Positions 340 to 32,464 of a stretch of DNA of 35,927 nt are shown here, one piece after another. A program made the position numbers and the translations under genes. The DNA is from Muribaculaceae bacterium (GTDB taxonomy: Bacteria > Bacteroidota > Bacteroidia > Bacteroidales > Muribaculaceae). The notes below the pieces were generated by a model. The model was given only the letters and a program-made list of their open reading frames with translations, did not search any database and was not told the origin of the DNA. The DNA is taken from positions 1 through 35,927 of the forward strand of contig JAIEAO010000152.1 of the NCBI GenBank assembly GCA_029071345.1, written 5' to 3'. Within the stretch, counting starts at the first letter, position 1. Every line of letters begins with the position of its first letter.

Positions 340-1149
340 TTACTTGGGGAGGTTGAAGACGGTGGAGATTTCCTGCATCTGTTCGGGTGTCATACCGTCA
401 GGAATGAAGCCCATTGCACGGGCATCACGGTATATGATGGCGCTCTTGTTGAGTACATCGACCATGTCGAACGCTTCCATGACATCATCACCGACGGCGA
501 AGACACCGTGCTTCTCCCACATCACTACGTCATAGTTGTCATCGATGGCCTTGATAGTCTCTTCGGCGAGTTCTACCGATGACGGCAGCATATAGGGCAC
601 TATGCCGAGACCGCGCGGACAGAAAGCCTTTGTCTCCGGGATCATGCTCCACAGCAAATGTGAGAGCACGTCTTTTTTCAGGAACATTGGATTATGGCTC
701 ATCGCTACAAGCTGGATAGGGTGAGTGTGAACCGATGCCTTATAGTTCGAGCCTTTACCGATCAGGTAGTTGTGTACGCTCAGATGCGAGGGGAGCTCGG
801 ATGTGGGCTTCACAGGTTCATCGGCTACAATCTCATAATTAGAGCAGTCGTCGCATATTCTGATGATTGAGCCGTTCTCCATCGGTCGGCGGGCGAGGTC
901 ACGCATTCGGCGGTTGGTACCCTTGCAATAGAACCAGCACCCTTTGAGGTTAGGGAGTGTCGCGCCGATCGGCATAGGTTTGGTAATTGCCGGCATGGCG
1001 CGCATTGCGTCGTCGACGTACTCGGTAATATTCACTGTTATATTGCCGCCGTTGCGCTCGGCCCAGCCCTTTTCCCACAGGTAGCCGGCTACCTCGGCGA
1101 CTTTATATACCTCGGCACTTAACGCCGGGCGGTTTTCAAGAATTGACAT
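340..1149 (-). CDS. rhaD: Rhamnulose-1-phosphate aldolase
   Basis: 269 aa with class II aldolase-type features (ERNGGNITVN, ASVHTHPIQLVAMSHNP, WEKHGVFAVG); last gene of a rhaBATD operon. Confidence 0.93.
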   Translation of the reverse strand: MSILENRPALSAEVYKVAEVAGYLWEKGWAERNGGNITVNITEYVDDAMRAMPAITKPMPIGATLPNLKGCWFYCKGTNRRMRDLARRPMENGSIIRICDDCSNYEIVADEPVKPTSELPSHLSVHNYLIGKGSNYKASVHTHPIQLVAMSHNPMFLKKDVLSHLLWSMIPETKAFCPRGLGIVPYMLPSSVELAEETIKAIDDNYDVVMWEKHGVFAVGDDVMEAFDMVDVLNKSAIIYRDARAMGFIPDGMTPEQMQEISTVFNLPK

Positions 1150-1153
1150 AACA

Positions 1154-2191
1154 TTATATCAGTTGAGGTAAAAAACATGAGATTATAAGTATCACTATAC
1201 CCGTCAGGAGCGTTATGATTGTGGCGCGTGAGCAACCCTTCCACTCCTTGAGAATGATGCCCCACACATTGGAGAAAACCACGTTAAGGGCCATAAGGAT
1301 ACAGAACGATAGCGTCATGAGAGTGGGGGAACCGGTCAGGAATCCCTTGCCGAGACTCAGCCCGAAGAACTGACTGTACCACAACGCGCCGGCGAGTGCG
1401 CAGAAGAGCAGATTATTGAGCCATACCGAGCCCTTTGCATAATCGCCCCATGAACTATTGCGTGCGTTCTGCACCAGACAGTAGATGACGTTGGTGATGA
1501 AGCCTCCCACGGTGACAAGCAGTGTGGCCGGTAATGTACGGTAGATTGCCGGTGTGAGTTCACCGAAGTTTATGTCAGCACCAAATTCGAGTCCGACATT
1601 GAAACAACCGCTCATGAAGCCGGCCAGTAGTGCTATCGCCAGACCTTTCGGGAAGTTGAAATCCTTTACAGCCTCCTTCTTCTGCTCCTCGGTGAGCATC
1701 GATGATTTCATCGAACCGGCTATGCCTATCACTGCAATACCGATCAGAGTAACAACCACGCCGATTATTACCGAAGCGGTTAACGCCGATAGGGGATCAA
1801 GTTCGGGGAAGAAGATGTTGAGCAGTACCGGGCCCATGACCGTACCGAGTGCCGCACAGGTGCCGAGAGCGATTGACTGGCCGAGCGCCACGCCGAGATA
1901 ACGCATTGAGAGACCGAATGTGAGGCCTCCTATGCCCCACAGTACCCCGAACAGCATCGTCATCCACAGGTTGAAGGGATTGCACTCTGCGAACAGTTCC
2001 CAAAGGGTGTGACCTGCGGGAACAGCAAGCATAGCGCCTATGAGCGGGAACACGAGCCACGCGAACACACCCTGCACGATCCAGTAAGTCTCCCAGCTCC
2101 AGGACTTGACCTTATTGATAGGCACGTAGCTACTCGACTGGCAGAACGCACCTATAGCTATGATTAGCAAACCGATAAGAGCTTCCATCAA
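1154..2191 (-). CDS. rhaT: L-rhamnose/proton symporter RhaT
   Basis: 345-aa polytopic membrane protein with RhaT-like N-terminus (SSYVPINKVKSWSWETYWIVQGVFAWLVFPLIGA); lies between rhaA and rhaD. Confidence 0.93.
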   Translation of the reverse strand: MMEALIGLLIIAIGAFCQSSSYVPINKVKSWSWETYWIVQGVFAWLVFPLIGAMLAVPAGHTLWELFAECNPFNLWMTMLFGVLWGIGGLTFGLSMRYLGVALGQSIALGTCAALGTVMGPVLLNIFFPELDPLSALTASVIIGVVVTLIGIAVIGIAGSMKSSMLTEEQKKEAVKDFNFPKGLAIALLAGFMSGCFNVGLEFGADINFGELTPAIYRTLPATLLVTVGGFITNVIYCLVQNARNSSWGDYAKGSVWLNNLLFCALAGALWYSQFFGLSLGKGFLTGSPTLMTLSFCILMALNVVFSNVWGIILKEWKGCSRATIITLLTGIVILIISCFLPQLI

Positions 2192-3438
2192 CGCTTAGAA
2201 GTTACCTCGGTTTCATACTTCTCCACCTCGGCTATGAAATCTGCTCCGGCGGGAACGTTATTGCGCAGGCAGAACATATTCCATACGTCGCCGAACGGCA
2301 TCGCCTTCGCCTCTTCCATAAGGGCAAGTTTCTGGAAGTTGCGGTTGGAGAGTTCGAGTTCGCTGAGTTTCGCCACAGGCTCCAGCAGACCGCGAAGAAT
2401 AGACTTCTGAGTGGCACGTGCACCAACTACATACGCACCGATACGGTTGATTGAGGCATCGAAATAATCGAGACCGATGTGTACGCGGTCGAGAGCGTTG
2501 CAGCGTGTGATCTCCATGCAAAGTTCCAGTGTAGAGTCATCCATAATAGTAACATGGTCGCTGTCCCAACGGATGGGACGTGAAACATGGAGCATGATCT
2601 CGGGGCAGAACAGAAGCACCGATGCGACCTTATCGCCAACAACCTCTGTGGGATGGAAATGGCCGGTGTCGAGAGTGACAATCTTATTGTTCTTCGCGCA
2701 GTAACCGAGATAGAAATCATTGCTTCCCACCGTGAAAGCCTCAAGACCGATGCCGAATACTTTCGACTCCAGACAGTCTTTCATGTGATGGTACTCGGTT
2801 TTGTAAATCTCATCGAGAGAATCCTTCAGAATTGAACGGTAGAGCATACGGTTTACCGTCATCTCCTTCTGACCGTCGTGGACCCAAAGGTTCATTATGC
2901 ACTGGTCGTCGAGCTGACGGCCCATTTCGTCAGCGATGGCACGGCAACGCTTTGTGTGCTCGATCCAGAAATCGCGTATCCCTTTGTCGGGGTTACTCAA
3001 TGACAAATCTCCCGACTTCGGATGAGAGAACGAGGTCGAGTTGAAGTCGAGTGTCAGGCCATTGGCTTTGGCCCAATCTATCCATCCCTGGAAATGCTTG
3101 ATGCTGACCTCGTCGCGATCAATCTTTTCATTGTCGAACTCACCATAAATCTCGTGAAGATTGATACGGTGGCTGCCTCCGAGCATAGAGCAGACCTTGA
3201 GCAGGTCGGCACGCACCTCGTCGATGTTGCGGGCTTTGCCTGGATAATTACCTGTAGCCTGAATACCTCCCGACAGGCTGTCGGTCGATTCAAATCCGGT
3301 TACGTCGTCGGTTTGCCAGCAATGAAGCGAGAGCTGTACTTTCTGTAATGTGTCAAGGGCTTTATCTGTGTCAATATCAAGTTCTGCATAGCGTTGACGG
3401 GCTATCTCGTAAGACTGTTCGATTTGTTTTGCATTCAT
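2188..3438 (-). CDS. rhaA: L-rhamnose isomerase
   Basis: 416 aa; L-rhamnose isomerase-like sequence (SLHCWQTDDVTGFE, LDFNSTSFSHPKSGDLSLSNPDKGIRDFWIEHTKRCRAI, LDTGHFHPTE); ATGA overlap with rhaT. Confidence 0.95.
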   Translation of the reverse strand: MNAKQIEQSYEIARQRYAELDIDTDKALDTLQKVQLSLHCWQTDDVTGFESTDSLSGGIQATGNYPGKARNIDEVRADLLKVCSMLGGSHRINLHEIYGEFDNEKIDRDEVSIKHFQGWIDWAKANGLTLDFNSTSFSHPKSGDLSLSNPDKGIRDFWIEHTKRCRAIADEMGRQLDDQCIMNLWVHDGQKEMTVNRMLYRSILKDSLDEIYKTEYHHMKDCLESKVFGIGLEAFTVGSNDFYLGYCAKNNKIVTLDTGHFHPTEVVGDKVASVLLFCPEIMLHVSRPIRWDSDHVTIMDDSTLELCMEITRCNALDRVHIGLDYFDASINRIGAYVVGARATQKSILRGLLEPVAKLSELELSNRNFQKLALMEEAKAMPFGDVWNMFCLRNNVPAGADFIAEVEKYETEVTSKR

Positions 3439-4916
3439 GATTGTGAAGTTATTGTTAGGTATTTGTTATATGCTGAGCCTCTATCGGAATTGGGTGAGGG
3501 AATGAATGTTTTCAGTTGATTAGACTCGCGTATTATCTTGCGCATCTCTCCGAGCGAACTGACCTCTCCGGCTGCCCGAGCCTGGACCATGATGTTTCCG
3601 GCAGCGGTACATTCCACAGGACCTGCCACAACCTCAACACCGAGTGCATCGGCAGTCATAGAGTTCAGGAAGTCGTTCTGCGATCCTCCGCCGATTACAT
3701 GCAGCCTATTGATGGCGAACGGTGCGAAACTCTCCAACAGTTCAAACACCTGACGATATCGCAGTGCGAGGCTCTCGTAGATGCAGCGCGTGAACTGCCC
3801 CGGAGTCTCCGGCACGGGTTGCCCGGTGCGGATGCAGTAGTCGGTGATGGCTGCGGTCATGCTTGCAGGATTAGCAAACACCGCGTCATCGGGGAAAATG
3901 AGGGAGCGAAGCGGTTCTGCTTCCTGTGCCATATCTACGAGCTTGGAGTATGATGTTTCGAGACCTTCGTTTGCCCACTCTTCTCGACAGCGTTCAAGGA
4001 GCCACATACCGCAGATGTTTTTCAAGAAACGAATCGTGCCCTCAATGCCACCCTCGTGGGTGAAATTCTCGGCTGCAGAGCGGTTGTTGATAATTGGGGT
4101 GTCGATCTCTATGCCCATCAGGCTCCATGTGCCCGAACTGAGGTAAGCGAAGCCATCGCGTTCGTCACTCGCAGGCACAGCGGCGACAGCCGATGCTGTG
4201 TCATGACCGGCGACCGCTACCACCGGCACCGGCCCGAGACCCGTAAGCTGCTGCACCTCGGGCGTAAGAGCACCGATTAACTCACCGGGCATCACCTCTC
4301 GACCAAAATTCTCTTTAGCAATTCCGACCGAAGCAAGGATTTTCTCGTCCAAACGTCGTGTCGAGGCGTTGACCATCTGAGAGGTCGAGGCCATCGTGTA
4401 CTCCGTCACCATCTCGCCTGTTAGCAGATAACTCAAGGCGTCGGGGAGAAAGAGGATCTTTTCGGCAACATCAAGTGCTGACGCCTCGGCACGTCTCATG
4501 GCTGAAAGCTGGAATAGCGAATTGAACGGCATTACCTGAATACCTGTGAGTGAGTAAACCTCATCGGCCGGCAGTCTGTCGGCAAAATAGCGTGCCGGTT
4601 CACCATCGGTATGGGTGTCGCGATAGCTGCGAGGCGTTCCGATAATGTGACCATCGCGACCAATCGTCACGAAATCCACGCCCCATGTGTCGATACCGAT
4701 TGATGTTAGTTCTACTTTACGTTCGGCTGCAGCTCGCAACCCGCGCAGAACCTCGTCATACAGATTCCATATATTCCAGTAGCACCGGCCACCGTGACGT
4801 ACGATACGGTTTGGGAAACGCGTCAGCTCCTCGAGAGTAAGCCGTCCATCGGCAAGTGTTCCGAGAATGGTGCGACCCGAAGTCGCCCCCAAGTCTATGG
4901 CAAGAAAATATGACAT
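3435..4916 (-). CDS. rhaB: Rhamnulokinase (FGGY family)
   Basis: 493 aa; sugar kinase start AIDLGATSGRTILG, internal GHDTASAVAAVP and GGGSQNDFLNSMTADALG; ATGA overlap with rhaA. Confidence 0.93.
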   Translation of the reverse strand: MSYFLAIDLGATSGRTILGTLADGRLTLEELTRFPNRIVRHGGRCYWNIWNLYDEVLRGLRAAAERKVELTSIGIDTWGVDFVTIGRDGHIIGTPRSYRDTHTDGEPARYFADRLPADEVYSLTGIQVMPFNSLFQLSAMRRAEASALDVAEKILFLPDALSYLLTGEMVTEYTMASTSQMVNASTRRLDEKILASVGIAKENFGREVMPGELIGALTPEVQQLTGLGPVPVVAVAGHDTASAVAAVPASDERDGFAYLSSGTWSLMGIEIDTPIINNRSAAENFTHEGGIEGTIRFLKNICGMWLLERCREEWANEGLETSYSKLVDMAQEAEPLRSLIFPDDAVFANPASMTAAITDYCIRTGQPVPETPGQFTRCIYESLALRYRQVFELLESFAPFAINRLHVIGGGSQNDFLNSMTADALGVEVVAGPVECTAAGNIMVQARAAGEVSSLGEMRKIIRESNQLKTFIPSPNSDRGSAYNKYLTITSQS

Positions 4917-8944: not shown

Positions 8945-9796
8945 TTAGTATTCCTCTACAATCCAGTCTTCAATTTGGCGTAAAACAATATCAAAACCGG
9001 GTTCAGAAACAGTCACATCAAACTTATATATGTTTCCCGACTTGAATTCGAACGGTCCGAGTTGTCTGGTAAATGTCATCCCTTTGAGAGTGCAGGCTAT
9101 AGAGAGATTACCAACCGAGCCGGGAAGGACGAAGTTCTCGCTGTGGTGGCCACCATCTGTTAAATTGACAGGAATCCGACCGGACACATCCTGTAATGAC
9201 AGTTGACCTGTAATCAAGTCGAAGTCTGCCTGTCCGGGAAGATTCTGGAATGCCATTGTCACACTCTTCAGATCCTCGTCAGTCACACCTTCACCTGCTT
9301 TAATGTCAAACATCACCTGTGCTAAAATATGTTTGAACTGAACTTTGACAGGTGCCAATGCCATATACTTATTGCGATTGGCGGAATACAGATAGTCGCT
9401 TTTTACAGCAGCTGCAGCGGTGGAAACATCAAGTGAGATGAGATTATTTTCAGATACTGTCTGATCGTAGGGCGTGTAGGCAAGAATATTTACTTTTGAC
9501 CCATCCTTGGGGTAGTGGAGCAGGTCGCCGGTATCAATCATGCCATCTGCATCAACCGACATTTTTAGGTTTGAGGCTATTAATTCATCAGATTCTGACG
9601 AAACCATGTAGACCCCGACTGCAGTACCGACCTCAATCGCTTCCGGCTTCTCTTTGTCATAAGGCACAATCTGAGCCTTGAGCTGAACAGCTACATCTGG
9701 CAGCTCTGTCTGACCTCCTTCATATATGTTCTCACAAGACGACAGAGATATTGCCGACAAGCCGATGGCGCAAATTGATAATAATTTAATTTTCAT
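8945..9796 (-). CDS. Fimbrillin-like lipoprotein (start revised to internal Met)
   Basis: ORF track start is 9856, but the ATG at 9796 gives MKIKLLSICAIGLSAISLSSCENIYEGG, a good lipoprotein signal peptide. Body has Mfa/FimA-like features (EVGTAVGVYMVSS, INILAYTPYDQT, PVKVQFKHILAQVMFDI). Confidence 0.75.
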   Translation of the reverse strand: MKIKLLSICAIGLSAISLSSCENIYEGGQTELPDVAVQLKAQIVPYDKEKPEAIEVGTAVGVYMVSSESDELIASNLKMSVDADGMIDTGDLLHYPKDGSKVNILAYTPYDQTVSENNLISLDVSTAAAAVKSDYLYSANRNKYMALAPVKVQFKHILAQVMFDIKAGEGVTDEDLKSVTMAFQNLPGQADFDLITGQLSLQDVSGRIPVNLTDGGHHSENFVLPGSVGNLSIACTLKGMTFTRQLGPFEFKSGNIYKFDVTVSEPGFDIVLRQIEDWIVEEY

Positions 9797-9815
9797 ATTT
9801 CCAAAGAATATATTG

Positions 9816-9861
9816 AAAACATGGGAGCGGCAGTGATCATGGGCTGACACCCCCATGTTTT
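9816..9861 (-). promoter_or_regulatory. Inverted repeat with two competing pairings between the two fimbrillin-like genes (possible attenuator or mRNA-processing structure)
   Basis: Perfect 10-bp inverted repeat AAAACATGGG (9816-9825) / CCCATGTTTT (9852-9861); a second CATGGG at 9838-9843 can pair with the same CCCATG (9852-9857). Confidence 0.5.
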
Positions 9862-9874
9862 ACAAATATAGGAA

Positions 9875-11722
9875 TTAATTATTAATCTTTACACAACGCA
9901 CGTTCAAAGCGTTGCAAGTGCTGTAATTATTCAGCTGACCCCAGCCATTATCAAATTGAGCAGCCTGATTCTTAAGCGGATAAGAAGGAGCAGCCATAGA
10001 GCCGGAGAAGAGCATAGCACTTGTAGTGTTTCCGAATGTACCGTCGAAGCGCATACGTCCACCTGCGGGATAGGTCGAGAGGGGATCGTTAACGAGTGTA
10101 TTGCCATCTACATATGAAGCCCAGGGAGACATACCGTTACGGTAGTTCGGCACCATCCAGCCTGCAGGCGAGGGATCGAATACCCCCTTCTCTCCTGTAG
10201 CTTCTACTGTCCAGTAGTTCGGACCATAAAGCAGATCCGCATTCTGGTCAGTTGTAAGCCAACTGTAAGGTTCGCCTTTCGATGTAACAAACAGGCCCGG
10301 GAAAGTCAGTATACGACGGGTTGACTGACCTTGGTTGTCACCCCAAATACCGTCTACAGTGTAGCTATAGGGATTGTTTTCAATATCATAAAGCGGGATA
10401 GTAGTGATTGAGACACCATCGGTGGGGAATTTGTCGGTGAATCCGGCATAAGGCTCATTGTTGCAGCCCTGATAATACATACCAATAGAGAGAGGATTGT
10501 TGACATCATTGCTCAACGCACCAAGATTGCGATCCATAAAGATATAATCATCTACGCCGTCGCCGTTATTGTCAACTCCTACAGTATTCTGCTCGGGGTC
10601 AAAATTAGTTACCCAGATGTGGTATGACCATACTTTATCACCACCCATTGTAACCGATACAAGAGCGTTACCTTCAATGTTACCGGCCTGTACGGTCACG
10701 GTGCTTTGTTCGCGCTGTGCGGCATCGGGATTGAGGGTCACGCTGCTGATAAGGCTCTGGTGATCCTGCCATATCAGAGTTGCACCAAGTTCACCGTCGT
10801 TTCTGAGGTTGCCGCCATTGATGTAAGGTATTTCACGCCATACCTTGAATGCTTTGAGAACCGGGAAAGTTACAGACTCACCGGGTTTTACAATATAGCA
10901 GTTGGGTAGGTCGGCCATCGAAACGAGGGTAGATGTTATGTTATAGCGATAAGCAAGTCCGGCGAATACATTTTCGTTAGCAAGTGAGTAGTTTTGAGTA
11001 TCATTACCGGCTCTCAGGACAATAGCGGCATCCTCTGCGACAATCTGCTCGGGAATGTAGGCGCGGTAATGCTTAGCTTCCATGAGATCCATTTTTACCG
11101 ATTTGACTTCGCTTCCAAGCTGCATCACATTCTCGGTTCCGAAACCGCCAAGATTGAATGAAGCAGTGGGGCAGAAACCATCTACTGTAAGATTGCTACC
11201 CGAACCGGCAACGATTTCGGCATCTAAAAGACCTAACTGGTGATAGAATGTGAGAGTGACAGTCTCGGTAGAGTTATCAATATCGGCTGTCTTGGCCATC
11301 ATAAGGTCATACATCGACGATGATGCGTCATAAGCAATAGCCTTCGGGTCAACATTCTCAGCATAGGGATAGTAAGCATAGAAATCAAGAGCGGTGCCAT
11401 CCTGGGGGAATGCCACATCCTTGTCAATCATCCATTGGCCATCGACTAATGTAAGTTTGTAATTGTCGGCATAGTTACCTGCAGAAGCGAGATCGGCAGT
11501 CTCCCCGGAGGCATGAACAACTGCAAACAAACCTACCTGGTCACCATTATCAAAGGTGGTTTTAAAATTGTCATCGGTAGTCACACGTGTTTGGCTTCCG
11601 GCTGTGACGAGCTCGAACTTGATTCCGGATACAGAATTTTGTGCGTTTGAAATCAATTCCTCATCTTGCGAACATGATGCAAGAATAAGTAGTGACGCAC
11701 TGAAGAAAATTAACTTTTTCAT
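9875..11722 (-). CDS. Fimbrillin-like (Mfa-like) lipoprotein with extended FISUMP-like C-terminal region
   Basis: 615 aa; lipobox LASCSQDEE; fimbrillin-like N-terminus (GSQTRVTTDDNFKTTFDNGDQVGLFAV, DFYAYYPYAENV, TLTFYHQLGLLDAEI); C-terminus with FMDRNLGALS, YYQGCNNEPYA and a terminal NVRCVKI. Confidence 0.8.
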   Translation of the reverse strand: MKKLIFFSASLLILASCSQDEELISNAQNSVSGIKFELVTAGSQTRVTTDDNFKTTFDNGDQVGLFAVVHASGETADLASAGNYADNYKLTLVDGQWMIDKDVAFPQDGTALDFYAYYPYAENVDPKAIAYDASSSMYDLMMAKTADIDNSTETVTLTFYHQLGLLDAEIVAGSGSNLTVDGFCPTASFNLGGFGTENVMQLGSEVKSVKMDLMEAKHYRAYIPEQIVAEDAAIVLRAGNDTQNYSLANENVFAGLAYRYNITSTLVSMADLPNCYIVKPGESVTFPVLKAFKVWREIPYINGGNLRNDGELGATLIWQDHQSLISSVTLNPDAAQREQSTVTVQAGNIEGNALVSVTMGGDKVWSYHIWVTNFDPEQNTVGVDNNGDGVDDYIFMDRNLGALSNDVNNPLSIGMYYQGCNNEPYAGFTDKFPTDGVSITTIPLYDIENNPYSYTVDGIWGDNQGQSTRRILTFPGLFVTSKGEPYSWLTTDQNADLLYGPNYWTVEATGEKGVFDPSPAGWMVPNYRNGMSPWASYVDGNTLVNDPLSTYPAGGRMRFDGTFGNTTSAMLFSGSMAAPSYPLKNQAAQFDNGWGQLNNYSTCNALNVRCVKINN

Positions 11723-14792: not shown

Positions 14793-17700
14793 ATGCTAAA
14801 CAACAATCGCAACCAAAAGGGGACAACATGGCCCTGGCGATTCTTGCGTTTCTGCTTGATCCTTGTCACTGTCCTTTGTTTTACCGGACAGCTCATGGCT
14901 CAGGAACCGACAGTAACCCTGAAACGCCAAAACATCACTTTATCAAAGGCATTTGACCTAATTCATGAACAGACCGGATACAATTTCGTCTACAACGAAG
15001 GTGTAGGCAATCTTGATGCCAAGGTAAATCTTAACGTTACAAATCAAACCGTTAGTAACACTCTCCGGCAGCTTTTGGCCGATAAGGACATAAGTTTTGA
15101 GATGGATGAAAAGTATGTCATACTGAAGAAAAAACCTAAGGCGGTGTCTTCAGAAATGACGGTAAAAGGCGTGGTGACTGATTCAGAGGGAGAGCCTCTA
15201 ATCGGTGCTACGGTTTTGATTAAGAGAACGAAGCAGGGAGTAGCGACAAATATAGATGGTCAGTTTGAAATTTCCGCAGCAAAAGGTGATATTCTCTCGT
15301 TTAGATATGTGGGATATACACCTAAAGATGTGCGTGTAACCGGACCCGAGCTCAAAGTTGTTCTTGAGGAAGCGGAAGTGGCTCTGAACCAGGTGGTAGT
15401 AATCGGTTACGGCTCAATGAAAAAGAAAGACCTCACGGGGTCCGTCAGCACCATCACCGGTGCCACTGTCACTGACCGCAAGGTATCATCCCTCTCCAAC
15501 GCCCTTCAGGGTGCGATGGGTGGCGTTACGGTTACGCGCAGCAACGGTGGACCGGGAGCGGCTGCCGACATTAAGATTCGAGGCATAACCACTATCGGTG
15601 ACAGCAGCCCTCTGATTATCGTCGATGGTGTTCCTGTCGATGATATAAATGATGTCAACCCTCAGGATGTGGAAAACGTCACAGCCCTTAAAGATGCTGC
15701 TTCAGCAGCCATATATGGATCTCGCGCTGCATCAGGAGTTATTCTCATCACCACCAAACGTGCGAGTGAAGGCAAGGTCTCATTGTCATATTCTTATGAA
15801 TATGGTTATGAAAAACCGACCGCACAGCCCGATTATGTCGATGCGACACGCTATATGGCGATGGTGAATGAGCTGCGCTGGAATGATGCGGGCAACGGTC
15901 CTGATCATTTCCCCGTTTATATTCCCGTCGTTATTGATGACTATGATTATCTTAACGCACGCTTCCCCAATGACTTCCCGAATACAGACTGGCGCGGAAT
16001 GCTCCTCAAGAATCATTCAAACCGTCAGTCACACAACTTCCGAATCTCGGGTGGCAACAAGACCGTGCGCACCAATGCCTCTATCGGTTATGACATGTCG
16101 GATGGTCTTTATGCAGACCGTGACTACTCTCGTCTGACCATTCGAATGAATAATGACATAACTATCAATAAATATCTTTCCGCCTCATTTGATCTCAATG
16201 TAAAGCGCAGCGAGTATAAAAGTCCGGTTTATGATCCGATGTATGCAGTCTACACAATGCCGGCCATCTATCCGGCCCTGTGGGAAGACGGACGTATTGC
16301 CGACGGAAAGTCAGGAGATAACCCTTACGCGGCTCTTAACTACGGAGGCACTTCGAAAAATAATTATAATCAGGTAGGTGGTAAGGCAGCCATTTATGTT
16401 ACGCCCATCGATGGACTTAAACTCTCCGCAATCATCTCCCCAATATGGAATAATTCGTCAGGCAAGTCATTCCGCAAGCGTATCGAATATTTTGCTGCTG
16501 ATGATCCTGACAACCTGATCGGAGCAATCAACGGCTTCGCTTCGACCAAACTTGATGAATCCCGCAACAATAATTACAGCATCACCTCACAGTTTATTGC
16601 CAATTACGACAATACTTTCGGTAAACACTCTGTAAGCCTGATGGCCGGTTACGAAGACAACTCATACAAGACTGAAGGTTTGTGGGCTGCCCGCGACAAG
16701 TTCGCACTTACGGAATATCCCTATCTCGACCGTGGCAATGCCGACTACCAGACGAATGGTGGCAATGCGGCGCACACCGCATATCGCTCGATATTCGGCC
16801 GCGCAATGTATAATTTCGACGGACGATATCTTCTTCAGGCCAACCTGCGTTGCGACCGTTCATCACGTTTCGATAAGAAATACCGTTCAGGAGTCTTCCC
16901 CTCAGTGTCGGGAGGTTGGGTGATAACCAGGGAACCTTGGTTTGAAAGATTTAGCCTTAACCCTTATCTCAATCAGCTGAAAGTACGCGCGTCTTACGGT
17001 TTGCTCGGTAATGACCGTGTGGGAAATTATCCTTATCTGCCTCTACTTAATTATACAGATGCCCTTTTCTGGGAAGGCTCAAACATTGTGTCTTCCACCA
17101 CCGCCGCGCAATGGTCGTATGCGATCCGTGATATATCCTGGGAGACAACAAAGACATTCGGCATAGGTCTTGATCTGGCTTTCTTCAACAACCGTCTTAC
17201 TGTCACCGGCGACTGGTATTATAAGATTACGAAGGATATGATTCTTGACATCGACATTCCTGATTATGTAGGTTATGACAACCCGTCGCAGAACACCGGC
17301 AAAATGAAAACCACCGGTTTTGAAATCGAGGCCCGTTGGAATGATGCTATCGGCGACTTCCACTATAGCGTATCGGCCAACTTGAGCGATTTCAAATCGC
17401 GGATGGGTTATCTGGGCGGAAATCAGTTCCTCGGTGACCAGATCAAAATGATGGGCAGCTACTTTAATGAGTGGTACGGCTACCGCACCGACGGTCTGTT
17501 CCAGACTCAGGAAGAGATAGACAACTATCCCGTGATGAACAGCAGTGTGCGCCCCGGTGACATCAAATATCTCAAAGCCGATCCGGAAGACACCACACCG
17601 ATATCGCCCGACAAAGACCGCGTACTGCTCGGTAATTCTCAGCCACGTTATCAGTATGGCCTTACCCTCACGGGGGGATGGAAAGGTTTCGACCTGAGCA

Positions 17701-18131
17701 TTACCTTACAAGGTGTCGGGAAACAACTTAAACGCAAGTCTGCCACTATGGTGCAGCCTCTGCGTGATAACTTCGGTAATATTCCCAAACTTATCGACGG
17801 CCGCTATTGGAGCAATTACAATACCCCCGAGCAGAATCTGAAGGCTGAATATCCCCGTCTGACTTCCACACAGGCTTCTTACAACTACGCAATGTCAGAC
17901 TTCTGGTTGATCAACAGCCACTATTGCCGTCTGAAAAACATATCGCTCGGCTACACAATCCCCTCGAATATAACAAAGAAGGCCTATATCCAAAGTCTTC
18001 GATTTTATATCGCGGCGAATGATCTGTTTTGTATAACTAATTATCCCCGCGGATGGGATTATGAGGGCTACGGCTCTACAGGTTATCCTATAACCAAATC
18101 CTTTATCTGTGGTGCAACCATTAATTTCTGA
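14793..18131 (+). CDS. SusC/RagA-family TonB-dependent outer-membrane transporter with N-terminal STN signalling domain
   Basis: 1112 aa; STN-like segment (VTLKRQNITLSKAFDLIHEQTGYNFVYN), carboxypeptidase-like domain (VKGVVTDSEGEPLIGATVLIK), plug (VVVIGYGSMKKKDLTGSVS, IKIRGITTIGDSSPLIIVDGVPVDDIN), C-terminal beta barrel. Confidence 0.96.
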   Translation: MLNNNRNQKGTTWPWRFLRFCLILVTVLCFTGQLMAQEPTVTLKRQNITLSKAFDLIHEQTGYNFVYNEGVGNLDAKVNLNVTNQTVSNTLRQLLADKDISFEMDEKYVILKKKPKAVSSEMTVKGVVTDSEGEPLIGATVLIKRTKQGVATNIDGQFEISAAKGDILSFRYVGYTPKDVRVTGPELKVVLEEAEVALNQVVVIGYGSMKKKDLTGSVSTITGATVTDRKVSSLSNALQGAMGGVTVTRSNGGPGAAADIKIRGITTIGDSSPLIIVDGVPVDDINDVNPQDVENVTALKDAASAAIYGSRAASGVILITTKRASEGKVSLSYSYEYGYEKPTAQPDYVDATRYMAMVNELRWNDAGNGPDHFPVYIPVVIDDYDYLNARFPNDFPNTDWRGMLLKNHSNRQSHNFRISGGNKTVRTNASIGYDMSDGLYADRDYSRLTIRMNNDITINKYLSASFDLNVKRSEYKSPVYDPMYAVYTMPAIYPALWEDGRIADGKSGDNPYAALNYGGTSKNNYNQVGGKAAIYVTPIDGLKLSAIISPIWNNSSGKSFRKRIEYFAADDPDNLIGAINGFASTKLDESRNNNYSITSQFIANYDNTFGKHSVSLMAGYEDNSYKTEGLWAARDKFALTEYPYLDRGNADYQTNGGNAAHTAYRSIFGRAMYNFDGRYLLQANLRCDRSSRFDKKYRSGVFPSVSGGWVITREPWFERFSLNPYLNQLKVRASYGLLGNDRVGNYPYLPLLNYTDALFWEGSNIVSSTTAAQWSYAIRDISWETTKTFGIGLDLAFFNNRLTVTGDWYYKITKDMILDIDIPDYVGYDNPSQNTGKMKTTGFEIEARWNDAIGDFHYSVSANLSDFKSRMGYLGGNQFLGDQIKMMGSYFNEWYGYRTDGLFQTQEEIDNYPVMNSSVRPGDIKYLKADPEDTTPISPDKDRVLLGNSQPRYQYGLTLTGGWKGFDLSITLQGVGKQLKRKSATMVQPLRDNFGNIPKLIDGRYWSNYNTPEQNLKAEYPRLTSTQASYNYAMSDFWLINSHYCRLKNISLGYTIPSNITKKAYIQSLRFYIAANDLFCITNYPRGWDYEGYGSTGYPITKSFICGATINF

Positions 18132-18136
18132 TAGTT

Positions 18137-19843
18137 ATGAAGTTTTATTCTAATATACTCACTGCGGCCGCTCTTTCGTTATTGTGTTCCTGCGCAGACC
18201 TTGACCTGCAGCCGCTTGATACCGGTTCGAGCGATTCATGGTACAAAACCGAAGATGAAATAAAGGCCTCGATCAACGGCCTATACCGCACTGACTTCTT
18301 CTCGCTCGAAAACTTTCAATGGAGCGATGATCACCAATCGCGTGACCGCCTTAATGAAATGACGGCTGCCACGGTCAATGGCGAAACTCATGCCGTAACC
18401 GAAATGTGGCAAGTATGCTACAAATCGATAGCACGTTGCAATATTCTTCTGGAGAAATTGCAGAATTATCAGGCGATAGGACTTTCAGAGGAACGCGCCA
18501 AACTTTATCGTGCCCAGGTACTTTTCGTAAGGGCCACGCAGTATGCCCGTCTCACATCATACTTCGGAGATGTAGTGTGGGTTGATTCCGAGCTTACGAT
18601 TGAAGATGCTTTCAAGATGGGTCGCACGGATCGTGCCGAAGTTATGGAGCATGTCTACGCGGACTATGATGAAGCAGCTCAATACCTGCCATTATCCTAC
18701 GGCACTCAAAAGGAATTAGCCACCAAAGCGGCAGCCCTCGGTCTTAAGGCACGATATGCCCTCTACAATGAGGATTGGGAAATTTCCGCTGCCGCTGCCA
18801 AAGAGTGCATGGAATTAGGATCACATCAGTTATATCCCGACTTCGAGAAACTTTTCCTTTCCTCGACTCGCCACGCTTGCGAGAATATCCTGTCGTGGCC
18901 GACATCGCTTGAACTCGAAATTTACGGCGAAAGTCCGGGAAATGCTATGGGTTTCCTTCCGCGCTGCCGTGGGGGTTATGCGTCAGAGTATCCTTCATGG
19001 GATTTGTTCGCCTCTTTCCTATGCACGGATGGTCTTCCTATCGACGAATCCCCACTGTTTGATCCTCAAAATCCTTTTAAGAACCGAGATCCGCGTTGCG
19101 CCGCTACGATCGTGGAGTTCGGCACAGAACATTGTGGTGTAATCTACGATCCGAATCCTATGGTAACTCAGGTCTACAGTTCCGTAGCCGGAAAAATGGT
19201 TACTAATCTTGACTGCAAGTCTGGCAGCCCGTATGCATCATATAACGGTCTGCTTCGCAAGAAAGGGATTGACGAGAGCTGGATCAACGATGGCTCGTTC
19301 AAGGTGGCCTTTGACATTGTTTTCCTTCGCTATGCCGAAGTGCTTCTCACTTATGCCGAGGCTAAAATAGAGGCGGGTGAAATTGACAATAGTGTCCTTG
19401 AAGCCATCAACCGGGTGCGTGCCCGTGCTTATAAGGCTGATTACACCAATACCAGAGCTTATCCGGCAGTGAAAACTACTGATCGCGAACAATTACGTAC
19501 CATCGTGCGCACGGAACGCAGAATGGAGTTTGCCTACGAAGGTCTTCGCCGCATGGACATTATACGCTGGCGCATTGCCGAGAAAGTTCTCAATCAGCCT
19601 GACTATGGACTGCTCGACAAAGACCTCCTCACCTCTAAACTCATTGACAAACAGTTGTGGTTCTGGCCCGAAACACCCGACATTGACGAGAACGGATCGG
19701 CCGATTTCTCATCTTTATATGGGCAAGGTTATTGTAAGATCATAACCCGTCGTCAGTTTGATGAGTCAAAGAATTATTTATGGCCCATCCCATCACAGGA
19801 AGTTATTACTAACCCTTATCTCGGACAAAATGATAATTACTAA
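18137..19843 (+). CDS. SusD/RagB-family nutrient-binding outer-membrane lipoprotein
   Basis: 568 aa; lipobox LLCSCADLDLQPLD; SusD features (SINGLYRTDFFSLENFQWSDD, VLLTYAEAKIEAG, EAINRVRARA, RTIVRTERRMEFAYEGLRRMDIIRWRIAE); follows susC. Confidence 0.96.
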   Translation: MKFYSNILTAAALSLLCSCADLDLQPLDTGSSDSWYKTEDEIKASINGLYRTDFFSLENFQWSDDHQSRDRLNEMTAATVNGETHAVTEMWQVCYKSIARCNILLEKLQNYQAIGLSEERAKLYRAQVLFVRATQYARLTSYFGDVVWVDSELTIEDAFKMGRTDRAEVMEHVYADYDEAAQYLPLSYGTQKELATKAAALGLKARYALYNEDWEISAAAAKECMELGSHQLYPDFEKLFLSSTRHACENILSWPTSLELEIYGESPGNAMGFLPRCRGGYASEYPSWDLFASFLCTDGLPIDESPLFDPQNPFKNRDPRCAATIVEFGTEHCGVIYDPNPMVTQVYSSVAGKMVTNLDCKSGSPYASYNGLLRKKGIDESWINDGSFKVAFDIVFLRYAEVLLTYAEAKIEAGEIDNSVLEAINRVRARAYKADYTNTRAYPAVKTTDREQLRTIVRTERRMEFAYEGLRRMDIIRWRIAEKVLNQPDYGLLDKDLLTSKLIDKQLWFWPETPDIDENGSADFSSLYGQGYCKIITRRQFDESKNYLWPIPSQEVITNPYLGQNDNY

Positions 19844-19856
19844 ACAATTAGACCGT

Positions 19857-21374
19857 ATGAATATCATAGCAAAAATCTCACTGATATCTTTTGCCGCAAT
19901 CGCGCCGTTCATAGTTTCGGCTTGCACAACAGAATATTTGACCTACAATCATAATCCCGGTGTGCCTGAAACGCCAGCTGAGCCGGAACCCGAACCGGAG
20001 ATGCCGGATGTGATGCCGGTCGGTACATATAAACTTCTCACTGATCAGCCGGCACAGGTGATAGAAGGACTCGGTTTTGAAATTCAGAATGAAATCACTG
20101 CCGCACCCGACGTAAACAAGCCAAGCAAATATTACGGCGTACCGCTTGACCTCGTTCCATCAGAGCGTAAACGCCTTGCCGAGGAAATGCTCAAGGGATT
20201 CCGCTATATGCGTATGGGAATGGGTGTATGGTATCAGGGTCAGACAGATGACCGCAAAAATTTTGTGGAACGTATCCCCGGTCAAAACGAGGCTCTCGTG
20301 CAACTTATGAAAGATGCCGGAGTTGAAGGAATCTCACTTGAATATTGGTCGCCTGCCACTTACTGGAAGTCAAACGGCAGTTTTAACGACGGTACGCTGA
20401 AAAGCTTTGACGACGATTTCCTTGATCAGTTTACCGATGCCCTTGTCAACGACATAAAATATTTCAAGAGCAATGGATTTAATGTGTCGACATGGGGATT
20501 GCAGAATGAATGTCAGTATGAATCCGTAGGGTATGCGCATTGCCATTACACTCCCGACCAATTCGTTAAAGTGTTTGGGATTGCAGCTCCGAAAGTACGT
20601 GCTCTCGATCCAAATATCGAAATCATCTATGACACCAACAGCGGAAACAATGGTGAGTACGGTGAAAAACTATGGCGCGAGAATTCCCAACTGCTCCCGT
20701 ATGTTGATGCATGGGTATATCACCGCATAGGTGATGATTCCGACTTCGTGATGGACCGCTGCGAAGAATACAAGGCCAACAATCAGGGGAAGCCCATCTA
20801 TCAGAATGAGTATGAATATTTCAACGATCAGATGCCTACGCACAGCTATGAGTGGTTTATGGTCAACACAGCCCAGTCGATTATGAACTGGATGACGTTT
20901 ATTGATTCGCCCAAGTGGTACTGGCTCCATGCTCTCAAGGCTGTCGATGACCACACTGACCGCGACGGATTCGGCCTTGGCATCTGGCGTCCGAGCTATG
21001 CCAACGACAGCCACGACTATCCGACGCTCAAACATGGTCACTTCACGTTCAATTGGCAGAACTTCAACGGTATTGCCGGCTTCCTGAAATATATGCCGTG
21101 GGATTCGCGCCGATATAAGGTACACGAGGATGAGGCCTTGCACAATAACCGCATTATGGCGTGGAAGACCCCTGAAGGAAAATTTGTCATCGCCCTCACC
21201 AACCGCTCCGATGAATGGTATGAGTTCAAGGTAGATCTTGACAAAAATATGAAACTCAACGGTCACCGGTATAATAAAAACGGTATTGACCAGCCTCTTG
21301 GAAGCACCGATGGTAACTCAACATTGTCTGCAAAGGTGCGTCCGTGGAGCATTGAATTTTGGGTTGAAGAGTGA
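19857..21374 (+). CDS. Surface lipoprotein glycosidase, GH30-like (clan GH-A)
   Basis: The ORF track's 19758 start overlaps susD; ATG at 19857 gives MNIIAKISLISFAAIAPFIVSACTTEY (lipoprotein signal). Contains IEGLGFEIQNE, STWGLQNECQYES (candidate acid/base), PIYQNEYEYF (candidate nucleophile) and a C-terminal beta-sandwich; Pro/Glu-rich tether after the lipobox. Confidence 0.7.
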   Translation: MNIIAKISLISFAAIAPFIVSACTTEYLTYNHNPGVPETPAEPEPEPEMPDVMPVGTYKLLTDQPAQVIEGLGFEIQNEITAAPDVNKPSKYYGVPLDLVPSERKRLAEEMLKGFRYMRMGMGVWYQGQTDDRKNFVERIPGQNEALVQLMKDAGVEGISLEYWSPATYWKSNGSFNDGTLKSFDDDFLDQFTDALVNDIKYFKSNGFNVSTWGLQNECQYESVGYAHCHYTPDQFVKVFGIAAPKVRALDPNIEIIYDTNSGNNGEYGEKLWRENSQLLPYVDAWVYHRIGDDSDFVMDRCEEYKANNQGKPIYQNEYEYFNDQMPTHSYEWFMVNTAQSIMNWMTFIDSPKWYWLHALKAVDDHTDRDGFGLGIWRPSYANDSHDYPTLKHGHFTFNWQNFNGIAGFLKYMPWDSRRYKVHEDEALHNNRIMAWKTPEGKFVIALTNRSDEWYEFKVDLDKNMKLNGHRYNKNGIDQPLGSTDGNSTLSAKVRPWSIEFWVEE

Positions 21375-21461: not shown

Positions 21462-23915
21462 ATGAGCACAATTAAATCCATAAACACGATCCTATTCACA
21501 TCAGTACTTTTCTGCAGTTGTGCAGCCACCACTACCACCCGCACACCTCTCGAGAGCGATAAGCCTAATTATGGAGGTGTTTTTCCTCACCTCGCATTTT
21601 ATAACAACGAGGGTGAATGTGGCACCGGCGCCGTGGTTCCCTGGCAGGGGAAACTTTGGGCGATTACTTACGGACCACATCTTCCGTGGGGATCAAGTGA
21701 TAAACTATATGAAATTGATGATACTCTCAACATCAATGTGCGCCCGGAGAGTGTCGGCGGAACCGCAGCTGACCGAATGATTCACCGTGAGAGCAACCAG
21801 CTTATCATCGGTCCTTATTTTATCGATAGTCTGTGCAATGTCAGAACCATGTCTTACGACAATGCACAAGGCCGTTACACCGGAGTCTGCCGACACCTGA
21901 CTGACCCGGCCAACAAAGTATATATTGCCACGATGGAGGAGGGATTCTATGAGGTGGATGTCAACACTCTGAAATCCCGCGAAATTTATCCTGATGCGAA
22001 TGTCGGCAACGGTCATGATGACACCGGAGTGAATCCACAGAATGACCTTCTTCCCGGAGCACACGGCAAGGGGCTTTATAGCGGTCAGAATGTGATGGTG
22101 TTCTCAAACAACGGTGAAGCTGTTCCTGAAGCGCTTGAGAAGTTTAATATCCCGTCGGGTTGTCTCGCCGAGTGGGACGGGAAGGATTGGAAAGTGATAC
22201 GCCGCAATCAGTTTACCGAAGTGACAGGCCCCGGAGGAATCTATGGCAGCGATCCTAAAGCTCCCATATATGCACTCGGATGGGATTACAAGTCCATCAT
22301 TCTGGCTATGCGCGATAAAGGGGAGTGGTCATTTTACCGACTCCCCAAGGCAAGTAATTCTTACGATGGTGCGCATGGTTGGAACACGGAATGGCCACGT
22401 ATCCGAGAGGTCGGGACAGCTGAAAATCCCATGAAACTTATGACCATGCATGGGATGTTCTGGGAATTCCCGCAGGAATTTAATACAGGTAAAACATCCG
22501 GGATTAGGCCACTTTCAGCTTATTTGAAAGTCATCGGAGATTTTACCCGTTGGAATGACAACCTGGTGTTTGGTTGTGATGACTCGGCAAAAAAAGAATT
22601 TCTGAACAAACGCCGCATTAAGGGTAATATCGCCGGCCCCGGACAGAGTAATTCAAACTTATGGTTTGTAGAACCTGCGCGCCTGAATAATTTAGGACCG
22701 ACTAATGCATCCGGATCGGTTTGGTTTAATGATGATGTAGAAGCAGGCAAGCCGAGCGAAGCAATGCTTTTTGCCGGATGGCCCAAACGTTGCGCATGGC
22801 TTAGGAATGATGGAGATGAAAATGTAAAATTCACTTTTGAAGTATCCGACGGCCGCGGGAAATGGTCTGCACTCAAAAGTGTAGATCTGAAGGGAAATAG
22901 TTCAGTCTTTGTTCCCTTCAACGAGGGTGACAAAGGGGAGTGGATTCGCCTTAAATCTGACAAGCCGACCACTGTAAGCGCCTTATTCTCTTATTCCGAC
23001 ACCGACACCCGAACCACCAAATCAAGTTCTATTTTCAACGGTTTGACTGCGGTCAACTCTACACCTGCTTCTACAGGTCGTCTGTACTGTCTGGGTAATA
23101 ATGCCCGTAAATTGGGTGTTGCAACCGATAAAGGATACTTTGAGCTGGATGGGAATATGAATTTTTCTCCTGAGAGTAACGCCGAGGTCATTGACTTTAT
23201 CAATAAAAACATGACCATTACGAACGAAGGTCTGGAAATCACCGACGGCTCCGTACTTATTATCGATGATAAAGGGCGACGCTGGAGACTCCCTAAGGGA
23301 TCGGAGGATTTTACTCCTCTCATTCGTGACAACAAGATGCGGATTTGCCGTGAAGTTTCCACCGAGCGCGACCTTCTCAACTGTCATGGCACCTTCTATG
23401 AACTTCCGGCTGAAAACGCAGACGGATTTGCCAAGATCAGACCGATTTCATCACATAAATTCCGCATCAATGACTATGGTTCCTATCGCGGAATGTTGGT
23501 TATGACAGGCCTATCGGATTCCGAAAGCAACAATCCCCGCATAATAAACTCTACCGATGGCAAGATGTCCCTTTGGTGTGGCTCAATAGATGACCTGTGG
23601 AAACTTGGCAAACCTGTAGGCAACGGAGGGCCATGGGTGGAGGAGTCAGTTAACGCCCATGAATATTCCGATCCATACCTCATAGGTTTTTATGACGATC
23701 GTATGCTGAATATCTCACATAAGTCTGCCGAGCCGGTAAAATTCACGGTTGAGGCGGATCCCACCGGTGATGGGAACTGGGTGCAATATGGCGTGTTTGA
23801 GGTTAATCCGGACGATTCATTTTTCCACAAATTCCCTGATGCATTCCAGGCCCGCTGGATTCGCTTTAAAACTGACAAACCTTGTGTGGCAACCACCTGG
23901 CTGGAATATAAATAA
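21462..23915 (+). CDS. Large secreted lipoprotein of unknown family with internal duplication (candidate glycan-active or glycan-binding protein)
   Basis: 817 aa; lipobox LFCSC; two similar long segments visible in the translation (WSFYRLPKAS..HGMFWEFP..IRPLS..VKFTFEV..WIRLKSDKPTTV and RRWRLPKGS..HGTFYELP..IRPIS..VKFTVEA..WIRFKTDKPCVA). Confidence 0.75.
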   Translation: MSTIKSINTILFTSVLFCSCAATTTTRTPLESDKPNYGGVFPHLAFYNNEGECGTGAVVPWQGKLWAITYGPHLPWGSSDKLYEIDDTLNINVRPESVGGTAADRMIHRESNQLIIGPYFIDSLCNVRTMSYDNAQGRYTGVCRHLTDPANKVYIATMEEGFYEVDVNTLKSREIYPDANVGNGHDDTGVNPQNDLLPGAHGKGLYSGQNVMVFSNNGEAVPEALEKFNIPSGCLAEWDGKDWKVIRRNQFTEVTGPGGIYGSDPKAPIYALGWDYKSIILAMRDKGEWSFYRLPKASNSYDGAHGWNTEWPRIREVGTAENPMKLMTMHGMFWEFPQEFNTGKTSGIRPLSAYLKVIGDFTRWNDNLVFGCDDSAKKEFLNKRRIKGNIAGPGQSNSNLWFVEPARLNNLGPTNASGSVWFNDDVEAGKPSEAMLFAGWPKRCAWLRNDGDENVKFTFEVSDGRGKWSALKSVDLKGNSSVFVPFNEGDKGEWIRLKSDKPTTVSALFSYSDTDTRTTKSSSIFNGLTAVNSTPASTGRLYCLGNNARKLGVATDKGYFELDGNMNFSPESNAEVIDFINKNMTITNEGLEITDGSVLIIDDKGRRWRLPKGSEDFTPLIRDNKMRICREVSTERDLLNCHGTFYELPAENADGFAKIRPISSHKFRINDYGSYRGMLVMTGLSDSESNNPRIINSTDGKMSLWCGSIDDLWKLGKPVGNGGPWVEESVNAHEYSDPYLIGFYDDRMLNISHKSAEPVKFTVEADPTGDGNWVQYGVFEVNPDDSFFHKFPDAFQARWIRFKTDKPCVATTWLEYK

Positions 23916-24025: not shown

Positions 24026-24541
24026 ATGAGAAAATTATTTCTTTCATTTGTAGTGTCATGCTTATTCACTGCTCTGTCAGCTCAAGCTGAAACAGGCTTT
24101 GACAGTGATATTACGAATTGGTCGTATGTGGAAAACGGTACAATTTATTCTACCGTAATTATTGAAAATCCAGTCGGCGTAGTCATTACAGTGCCGGGGA
24201 GCGAGACCGAAATTGAACTCACTGAAGGAAGCAACACTCTTAAGGTGCCTCTTTCACAGCCCGTTTATGAAGTGAGCGCTAAAGATGGTTACGCTATAAC
24301 TGTCAAAGTAGGTGACAAAGCCTACGTTTACGACAATGAGCCTATCGTAATCAACTGCACAAAACCGGCTCCAGTATATATATCTGCCACCGGCAACACA
24401 TCCACTAACTGCCTGACTATTTCAGCTAACGATGCTGAAGTAAAGTATTATGATCTCAATGGTTTGACGGTCAAACAACCTCAACCCGGAAAAATTTATA
24501 TCAGGGTGTCAGGCTCTGAAGTGCGGAAAGTGAAATTCTGA
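24026..24541 (+). CDS. Small secreted protein with T9SS-like C-terminal sorting domain
   Basis: 171 aa; signal peptide MRKLFLSFVVSCLFTALSAQA; C-terminus VKYYDLNGLTVKQPQPGKIYIRVSGSEVRKVKF fits the '(Y)YDLNG..V..P..GIYI...G...KV' Bacteroidetes C-terminal secretion-domain pattern. Confidence 0.6.
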   Translation: MRKLFLSFVVSCLFTALSAQAETGFDSDITNWSYVENGTIYSTVIIENPVGVVITVPGSETEIELTEGSNTLKVPLSQPVYEVSAKDGYAITVKVGDKAYVYDNEPIVINCTKPAPVYISATGNTSTNCLTISANDAEVKYYDLNGLTVKQPQPGKIYIRVSGSEVRKVKF

Positions 24542-24697: not shown

Positions 24698-27070
24698 ATG
24701 AAAATATCATTGAAATTTTTTAAGATTCTCACAGGGCTTCTTTGCATGACAGGCGCAATAGTTGTTAACCCTGTTGTCGCCCGGAATCCTATTGCCAAGA
24801 GCGAAGCAACCGTGGAATCAGGTAACGCCCGGTTCACCGTCCTGACCCCTGAAATGATTCGCATAGAATATAGTGAAAGAGGAACCTTTGAGGACCGTGC
24901 TACATTTACAATACAGAACCGGGAGATGGATATAGTTCCGGACTTTTCAAAAAACGAGGATAAGGAATTCCTGTATATAGAGACGGAAAAAATCAAACTT
25001 AAATATCGCAAGGGCTCAAATCCGAAAACGATTCCGGCTTCTCCTGATAATTTAAAGATAACAATGAAACACAACCGCGACACCGTAGTATGGTATCCCG
25101 GCAAACCTGACCCATTGAATCTTAAAGGAACCTGTCGCACTCTTGACTTATGTGATGGTGACAGTAAGCGCTCTGAACTTGAAAATGGCTTAATATCACG
25201 ATCTGGATGGGCCGTTATTGATGACTCATGGACTGCAGCCCGCCCCGATGGCGGCCGTTCGTTTGCTCTTGAACCAAATGAAGAGCTCGGTTACGACTGG
25301 TGGAGTGCGAGGAAAGATCCTGATGCTTTGGATATCTACTTTATGGGTTATGGATCAAACTATAAAAAAGCTTTGAGTGATTACACAAAAGTGGCGGGGA
25401 AAATACCGTTGCCCCCAAACTATGTTTTTGGCTACTGGTATAGCCGATATGCTCCTTACACAGATTCTGATTATCGTCAGATAATGCGGGAGCTTGCGGA
25501 GAATGATATACCGACAGATGTCATGATTCTGGATATGGACTGGCATTGGAACGGAAAAGCAGATTGTGAATCGTCAGGCCGTGGAAATTGGACCGGTTGG
25601 TCATGGAATACAAATTTGATTCCTGCCCCTGAAAAACTCCTTAATGATATTCACGATAATGATCTAAAATTGTCTCTTAACCTTCATCCTGCGGATGGGA
25701 TCGATAGCATTGAGTCTCCCCAATATTATAATGCCATTAAATCAGAGCTGCAGGGCAAGTATGATAATAAGGGAGTTATCACATGGAGTGTTGACTATCC
25801 GGATTTCACTAAATCGTTCTTCAAGAATATAATACGTGAACATGAAAAAGAAGGTGTCGATTTCTGGTGGCTCGACTGGCAACAGTACCTTACAAGTCCT
25901 TTTACATCAGGTCTTAGCGAGACATTCTGGTGCAATCATGTTTTCTACAACGATATGAAGACAAACCGCACAGACCGTCGTCCTGTCATTTTCCATCGTT
26001 GGGGTGGCCTTGGCAGTCACCGTTATCAAATCGGTTTTTCGGGAGATGCAATGATAAATTTCCCCACATTGGCGTTTCAGCCCTATTTTACGGCCACGGC
26101 TTCAAATGTAGGTTATACATATTGGGGTCACGATCTGGGAGGGCATTTGTTTACTGATGAAAAGATCGTCAATGATCCTGAATTGATGCTTAGATGGATA
26201 CAATTCGGTGTATTCACTCCTATTTTTCGCAGTCATGCCACTAAAGAAGATAGAATCGAACGAAGGATATGGAAATTCAGTAATTTCCCTCTTATGCGTG
26301 ATGCCGTAAAACTACGCTACGCTCTTTTCCCTTACATATATACTATGGCTCGTAAAACTTACGATACAGGTATCGGTATGTGTCGACCTCTATATTATGA
26401 ATTCCCGGATGATGAAGAAGCCTATAATTATGAGGGAGAATATTTCTTTGGCGATAATATCCTGGTTGCACCTATCACCGAGCCTGCCACTGACGGTAAA
26501 ACAAGCTATAAGAAAATCTGGTTTCCGACAGGGAAATGGTGGAGCGTGGCGACAAATCAACTTATCGAAGGTCCATGTGTCATGACGATGGAGTTCTCAG
26601 CGGAGGATATTCCTTATTTTTACAAAGCAGGATCTATTATTCCAATGAATCCGTCATCTGTAAACAGGGTTACGACGCGCCCTGAAGAAATCGTGCTTCA
26701 TTCGGTTGCCGGTAGTGAAGGTGAGGATATTTTATATGAAGATGAAGGGGATAATCCGGATTACGATACAAGATATGCTACCACACAACTCAGACATCAC
26801 GTAAACGGCAATAAAGAGACATATCTTATATGCCCCAGAGAAGGTGATCAGTCAAATCTCGTTCAGAGTCGTTCGTGGAAGCTTAATATTTTTAATGCCT
26901 GTCCTCCCGATGAAATCAAAATCAATGGTTTCGTACTTGGACAAAAAGATTGGCATTATAATGCTGCCGATAAGGAACTTAGCATTTCAATTCCCAAAAC
27001 AAATTGCAGTGAGGCCATCAAGATTACTGTGACATATAAGTCTGAAACGGGAAGAACCTCAGGCAAATGA
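24698..27070 (+). CDS. Glycoside hydrolase family 31 protein
   Basis: 790 aa with N-terminal signal; DVMILDMDWHW, GVDFWWLDWQQ (candidate nucleophile), SGDAMINFPTLAFQPYFTATASNVGYTYWGHDLGGH and PIFRSHATKEDRIERRIW are GH31 motifs. Confidence 0.92.
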   Translation: MKISLKFFKILTGLLCMTGAIVVNPVVARNPIAKSEATVESGNARFTVLTPEMIRIEYSERGTFEDRATFTIQNREMDIVPDFSKNEDKEFLYIETEKIKLKYRKGSNPKTIPASPDNLKITMKHNRDTVVWYPGKPDPLNLKGTCRTLDLCDGDSKRSELENGLISRSGWAVIDDSWTAARPDGGRSFALEPNEELGYDWWSARKDPDALDIYFMGYGSNYKKALSDYTKVAGKIPLPPNYVFGYWYSRYAPYTDSDYRQIMRELAENDIPTDVMILDMDWHWNGKADCESSGRGNWTGWSWNTNLIPAPEKLLNDIHDNDLKLSLNLHPADGIDSIESPQYYNAIKSELQGKYDNKGVITWSVDYPDFTKSFFKNIIREHEKEGVDFWWLDWQQYLTSPFTSGLSETFWCNHVFYNDMKTNRTDRRPVIFHRWGGLGSHRYQIGFSGDAMINFPTLAFQPYFTATASNVGYTYWGHDLGGHLFTDEKIVNDPELMLRWIQFGVFTPIFRSHATKEDRIERRIWKFSNFPLMRDAVKLRYALFPYIYTMARKTYDTGIGMCRPLYYEFPDDEEAYNYEGEYFFGDNILVAPITEPATDGKTSYKKIWFPTGKWWSVATNQLIEGPCVMTMEFSAEDIPYFYKAGSIIPMNPSSVNRVTTRPEEIVLHSVAGSEGEDILYEDEGDNPDYDTRYATTQLRHHVNGNKETYLICPREGDQSNLVQSRSWKLNIFNACPPDEIKINGFVLGQKDWHYNAADKELSISIPKTNCSEAIKITVTYKSETGRTSGK

Positions 27071-27089: not shown

Positions 27090-32464
<5,375 letters not shown>

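Follow-up and report, generated by a model that had tools for sequence, protein, structure and literature searches.

The 35,927-nucleotide stretch of Muribaculaceae DNA analysed here (the window) encodes on its forward strand an 817-aa protein (single ORF, 21462-23915) belonging to an uncharacterised family of known kind, that of a very well conserved and unnamed beta-propeller. This protein is most likely a sugar-processing enzyme, and our best guess is that it acts on acidic oligosaccharides via a His/Arg-rich propeller face.

Predicted fold and internal duplication

The AlphaFold model of the protein, computed with 68 sequences, is confident (pLDDT 91.7, pTM 0.91) and all-beta with short helices only, and it bears out the guess of a first-pass annotation that the protein is built of units combining propeller-like blades and a beta-sandwich. 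The N-terminal domain is a seven-bladed beta-propeller (residues 34-410; 21561-22691, forward strand), which is the most conserved part of the protein and likely its functional site. It is followed by a less conserved, eight-stranded beta-sandwich (residues about 405-515; 22674-23006), a shortened propeller of about four blades (residues 516-710; 23007-23591) and a second beta-sandwich (residues 711-817), these three being delineated on the same strand by DSSP on the model. In the strand list, the seven blades themselves take up residues 54-403, the four further ones 540-707 and the second sandwich 720-816. A similarity to F5/8 type C domains within the second sandwich (residues 756-806) is weak and below its cut-off (E 0.0046), providing a hint only.

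The clear internal duplication described in the first-pass annotation is also found, and at the sequence level it is far beyond chance. Comparing two parts of the protein by BLASTP, residues 280-511 align with residues 597-816 at 30% identity across 235 columns (E=1e-18), and the halves treated as family profiles in hhalign match over residues about 272-512 and 591-817 with a probability of 99.9 (E=3.9e-31). Copy 1 thus spans 22275-22997 and copy 2, which includes the second beta-sandwich, 23232-23912, both on the forward strand. The duplication demonstrable in sequence is limited to the sandwich and roughly the three blades that precede it, and the first three blades are missing from the second copy. 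The second half lacks the polar residues of blades 1-4, and the putative active site is therefore probably located in the first propeller.

Submitted to Foldseek, the full-length model gave only distorted multi-propeller alignments, with double-propeller sensor and PorZ ectodomains among the top matches. Because of these distortions, the N-terminal propeller was modelled separately, again with confidence (pTM 0.89) and with seven A-B strand hairpins in DSSP. Alone, it matches generic seven-bladed propellers (YncE, WD40) with a TM of about 0.5; no catalytic CAZy propeller appears among its top 50 matches, and 3tc9, a Bacteroides 'auxiliary nutrient binding' propeller, comes at rank 20. The YncE/WD40-type proteins have the fold of the N-terminal domain in common with the 817-aa protein, whereas their identity to it is 8-13% and they possess neither the sandwich, nor the duplication, nor the polysaccharide utilization locus (PUL) context.

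No usable match was obtained by searching Pfam, NCBIfam and PDB sequences with the protein, the family profile and the short paralogs described below, and a literature search for a named family of the propeller/sandwich kind found nothing. The earlier statement that no named family can be recognised therefore holds; the Foldseek comparison, which had been proposed at that time, yielded generic propellers, and no sequence match led to a characterised family. Given this result, the propeller/sandwich model and the glycan gene context, it was reasonable to present the protein as a candidate for a glycan-active family.

Relatives and gene neighbourhoods

Scanning one genome for each species identified 437 encoded relatives. 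The best 80 of them, at 56-78% identity, are nearly all of the same ~820-aa type and all come from Bacteroidota (Bacteroidia, Cytophagia and Chitinophagia), the phylum to which the genome search was devoted. The family has a patchy occurrence, being present in 5 to 6 of roughly 390 genomes sampled. No relative was found in a phage collection or in IMG/VR viral contigs, and two plasmid-borne relatives carry the NCBI annotation "hypothetical protein". Two divergent paralogs (L026:6375-9974 and L086:12679-15366) end with Por secretion-system tails, the former also displaying a weak, sub-threshold match to CBM4/9.

Four short paralogs of ~480 aa include one propeller and one sandwich, and each is encoded directly upstream of a long form. 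The family profile recovers them with E=6.7e-70 in a profile comparison, which served as a positive control. Compared with the long form, their C-terminal parts are closer to its second half than to its first (39-43% versus 33-36%). In the simplest history, two tandem single-unit genes would have fused, the second one then losing its first blades.

The usual gene order is SusC-SusD-family gene, with SusD at 61 and SusC at 55 of 84 loci and a near-universal co-orientation of the family genes with both. In Dyadobacter and Spirosoma, a family member is frequently the sole gene following SusCD. In 17 loci including L073 (3593-4933, reverse strand), a protein of ~447 aa with a mid-chain transmembrane-like stretch and no Pfam/NCBIfam match is encoded; its gene is divergent from SusC in the mini-loci of these two genera, and it is perhaps a membrane-bound regulator. 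The commonest enzyme neighbour after SusC/SusD is an FAD-dependent oxidoreductase (PF12831, 24 of the 84 loci, e.g. L037:7468-9330), a lead pointing to oxidative glycoside cleavage, although this count comes without a background rate. Sulfatases (14 loci), GH2 (9), GDSL/BD-FAE esterases (8), GH29 (6) and GH30-like proteins (5) follow, together with single cases of GH92, GH95, GH116, GH43 and a lyase-GH88 set; GH36, GH78, GH88 and lyases are also among the glycan enzymes near family loci. These neighbours are too varied to name one substrate.

In the window, the gene belongs to the same operon as a SusC-like TonB-dependent transporter (14793-18131), identified by sequence and by its recurrent neighbour cluster, and a SusD-like lipoprotein (18137-19843), whose cluster representative is a SusD in Pfam. 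Directly upstream lies the GH30-like gene (19758-21374) already noticed in the first-pass annotation. Its product is divergent, with a weak GH30C match, no Pfam catalytic-domain match and a distant PDB match only (AcXbh30A, E=1.6e-5), and possibly represents a divergent GH30 subfamily; counterparts occur near L008, L009, L010, L030 and L072. Past the 817-aa gene, the operon encodes a GH31 (24698-27070; best PDB match labelled alpha-xylosidase), a GH36 alpha-galactosidase-like enzyme (27090-29285; family and PDB matches), a GH2, a GH3 and an esterase. All genes with coordinates given in this paragraph are on the forward strand. Such a set of enzymes would fit a hemicellulose locus better than one for arabinogalactan-rhamnose.

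Other genes of the window deserve mention. A 171-aa protein encoded directly downstream (24026-24541, forward strand) has no family match above cut-off and is kept by the closest relatives only (L007, L008). A WbsX protein (PF14307; 13452-14708, forward strand), with no solved relative, is encoded beside a GH63/MGH1-like gene in the PUL context. Two fimbrillin-like lipoproteins (8945-11722, reverse strand) adjoin a sigma/FecR pair, and the one at 9875-11722 has a relative near L008, L009, L010 and L072.

Candidate functions of the protein

Across 45 loci with the complete trio, the mean pairwise identity is 67% for the 817-aa-type protein versus 45% for both SusD and SusC, and in 94% of pairs it is the former that shows the higher conservation. 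About 66 residues of the N-terminal propeller are invariant across 67 sequences. Many of them are still invariant in the diverged, single-unit short paralogs, and the residues kept there include H73, R105, H108, R138, H145, E159, H201 and K203, as well as N216, N217, D302, E310, R313, R315, H330 and D360. Reading the DSSP strand order of the model, H73, R105, R138, E159, H201, K203, N216/217 and D360 would be on one face of the propeller, and H108, H145, W274, H330 and W364 on the opposite one.

On balance, the protein is probably a PUL-encoded enzyme active on carbohydrates, likely periplasmic and belonging to an uncharacterised family, with its active site in the propeller and an acidic oligosaccharide motif as target. 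We infer its enzymatic nature, its location and the roles of its residues as follows. An oligosaccharide would enter through SusC/SusD, and the periplasmic protein would then cleave or modify one recurrent acidic motif on it. The active site would be in the N-terminal seven-bladed propeller, while both sandwiches and the incomplete C-terminal propeller would have an accessory role (binding or structural). The pocket may be formed on the canonical propeller face by H73, R105, R138, E159, H201, K203, N216/N217 and D360, where Arg/Lys would anchor a carboxylate or a sulfate, with His acting as general base or acid, as in the propeller lyases PL22/24/25/42. Lyase-type chemistry itself, suggested by this analogy, is somewhat doubtful.

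The enzymatic reading is supported by the consistent SusC-SusD-gene order in the company of a wide range of glycan enzymes (GH29, GH95, GH92, GH2, sulfatases) and by the setting of the family gene together with lyase-like and GH88 genes in Bacteroides congonensis (B. congonensis, L058). A conservation above that of SusD and SusC, the invariant propeller residues kept in the short paralogs and the Por tails of two divergent paralogs, as on secreted enzymes, also appear to favour it. Against it stand the generic nature of the Foldseek propellers and the many Dyadobacter and Spirosoma genomes in which the trio SusC-SusD-gene is alone. The PUL of the window itself gives no sign of an acidic substrate, as no lyase, GH88 or sulfatase is obvious in it.

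The propeller lyases are the best analogy for a putative working mode, rather than a family to join. PL22, PL24, PL25 and PL42 lyases and GH145 share with the 817-aa protein a seven-bladed beta-propeller, which is the catalytic domain in GH145/PL42 and a similarity of predicted fold only, as well as conserved His/Arg, and some occur in Bacteroidota glycan loci. The catalytic residues are His48 in BT3686 and His85, His105 and Arg166 in FoRham1. In PL22, a metal-binding His cluster is associated with catalytic His/Arg; at the sequence level, the 817-aa protein has several invariant His/Arg. FoRham1 is a PL42 member of Pfam BNR_4, and the PL27 fold consists of an N-terminal beta-sandwich and an (alpha/alpha)6 barrel (PMC8377490). 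The GH145/PL42 profile (PF15892, BNR_4) gave no hmmscan match to the protein at E<=1, and this home was rejected as hhalign against seven PF15892 relatives returned a probability of 0.2 percent. PL22 (PF14583) was likewise rejected, with no Pfam match and a probability of 0.7 percent in hhalign against two PF14583 relatives, the profile comparison covering PL22, PL42 and GH145. PL27 is excluded because the model is all-beta, without an (alpha/alpha)6 barrel. The duplicated propeller-sandwich architecture also sets the protein apart from PL22/24/25/42 and GH145. A genuine PF15892 (GH145/PL42-type) protein is encoded elsewhere in the genome of the window (contig C53:22769-23560, locus L095; E=3e-94).

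A surface glycan-binding protein, in SusE/F position or as a propeller binder of the BT_3476/BtuG kind handing glycan to SusCD, would account for a gene that directly follows SusD at most loci and for loci reduced to SusC, SusD and the family gene. Indeed, SusE/SusF-type SGBPs, BT_3476 (PDB 3tc9) and BtuG resemble the protein by the position beside SusD, the propeller and the weak Foldseek similarity to 3tc9, and the F5/8-like sandwiches fit as well. However, binding proteins usually diverge faster, whereas the conservation here is far above that of SusD and many charged residues are invariant, unlike in SusE/F-type SGBPs. The signal sequence (21462-21521, forward strand) carries a plausible lipobox, SVLFCS/CAATT, the Cys of which is not followed by an acidic export signal. 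The designation lipoprotein given earlier thus suits the window protein but not the family as a whole, since 44 of the 68 aligned relatives look lipidated and about a third have no lipobox. According to the lipoprotein surface-export signal (LES) rule, acidic residues follow the lipobox Cys (PMC5080379); at least two of them at +2 to +7 occur in none of the 21 detected family lipoboxes versus 20 of 43 SusD controls. Moreover, separate genes for SGBP-type proteins (DUF4998+F5/8C; DUF4959-DUF5000) coexist in some family loci. A periplasmic enzyme is therefore likelier, judging from these sequence features, and a surface binder appears unlikely.

A non-enzymatic accessory or assembly factor for a particular SusCD pair is quite unlikely. 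It would agree with the tight, co-oriented linkage to SusC/SusD and with the sensor and PorZ ectodomains retrieved by the full-length model, but some loci have no adjacent SusCD (e.g. L017, L023, L048, L056), the two tagged paralogs look secreted, and SusC/SusD diverge much faster than the 817-aa-type protein.

The removal of L-rhamnose caps from arabinogalactan by a GH145-, PL42- or PL27-like activity, which had been raised as a testable possibility in view of the adjacent GH30-like enzyme and a rha operon in the window, is highly improbable: despite the seven-bladed propeller, an alpha-L-rhamnosidase annotated upstream on the Chondrinema plasmid and GH78 rhamnosidases near 2 of 83 related loci, rhaA/B/D/T probes found no recurrent rha gene in these 83 loci, the profile and fold comparisons above are negative, the genome has its own PF15892 protein and the PUL enzymes of the window are of GH31, GH36, GH2, GH3 and GH30-like types. 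The rha operon (340-4916, reverse strand) lies about 16.5 kb upstream of the 817-aa gene on the opposite strand, separated from it by a GH3 gene, the sigma/FecR pair and the two fimbrillin-like genes, all on the reverse strand, and then by the PUL.

Significance for Bacteroidota glycan loci

Coming back to the enzymatic reading, the protein could, as a tentative proposal, be the founding member of a new Bacteroidota-wide family of propeller CAZymes (glycoside hydrolase or lyase), born by tandem fusion and directed at an acidic motif that many glycans share. The family gene is present at several hundred loci of Bacteroidota, mostly beside SusC/SusD, yet it has no Pfam/NCBIfam name. With a full propeller and sandwich followed by a shortened copy, it represents a propeller gene that was duplicated and partly decayed while still under strong constraint. 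The mini-loci composed of SusC, SusD and the family gene only offer a simple test system, and the assignment of an activity would annotate all of these several hundred loci together.
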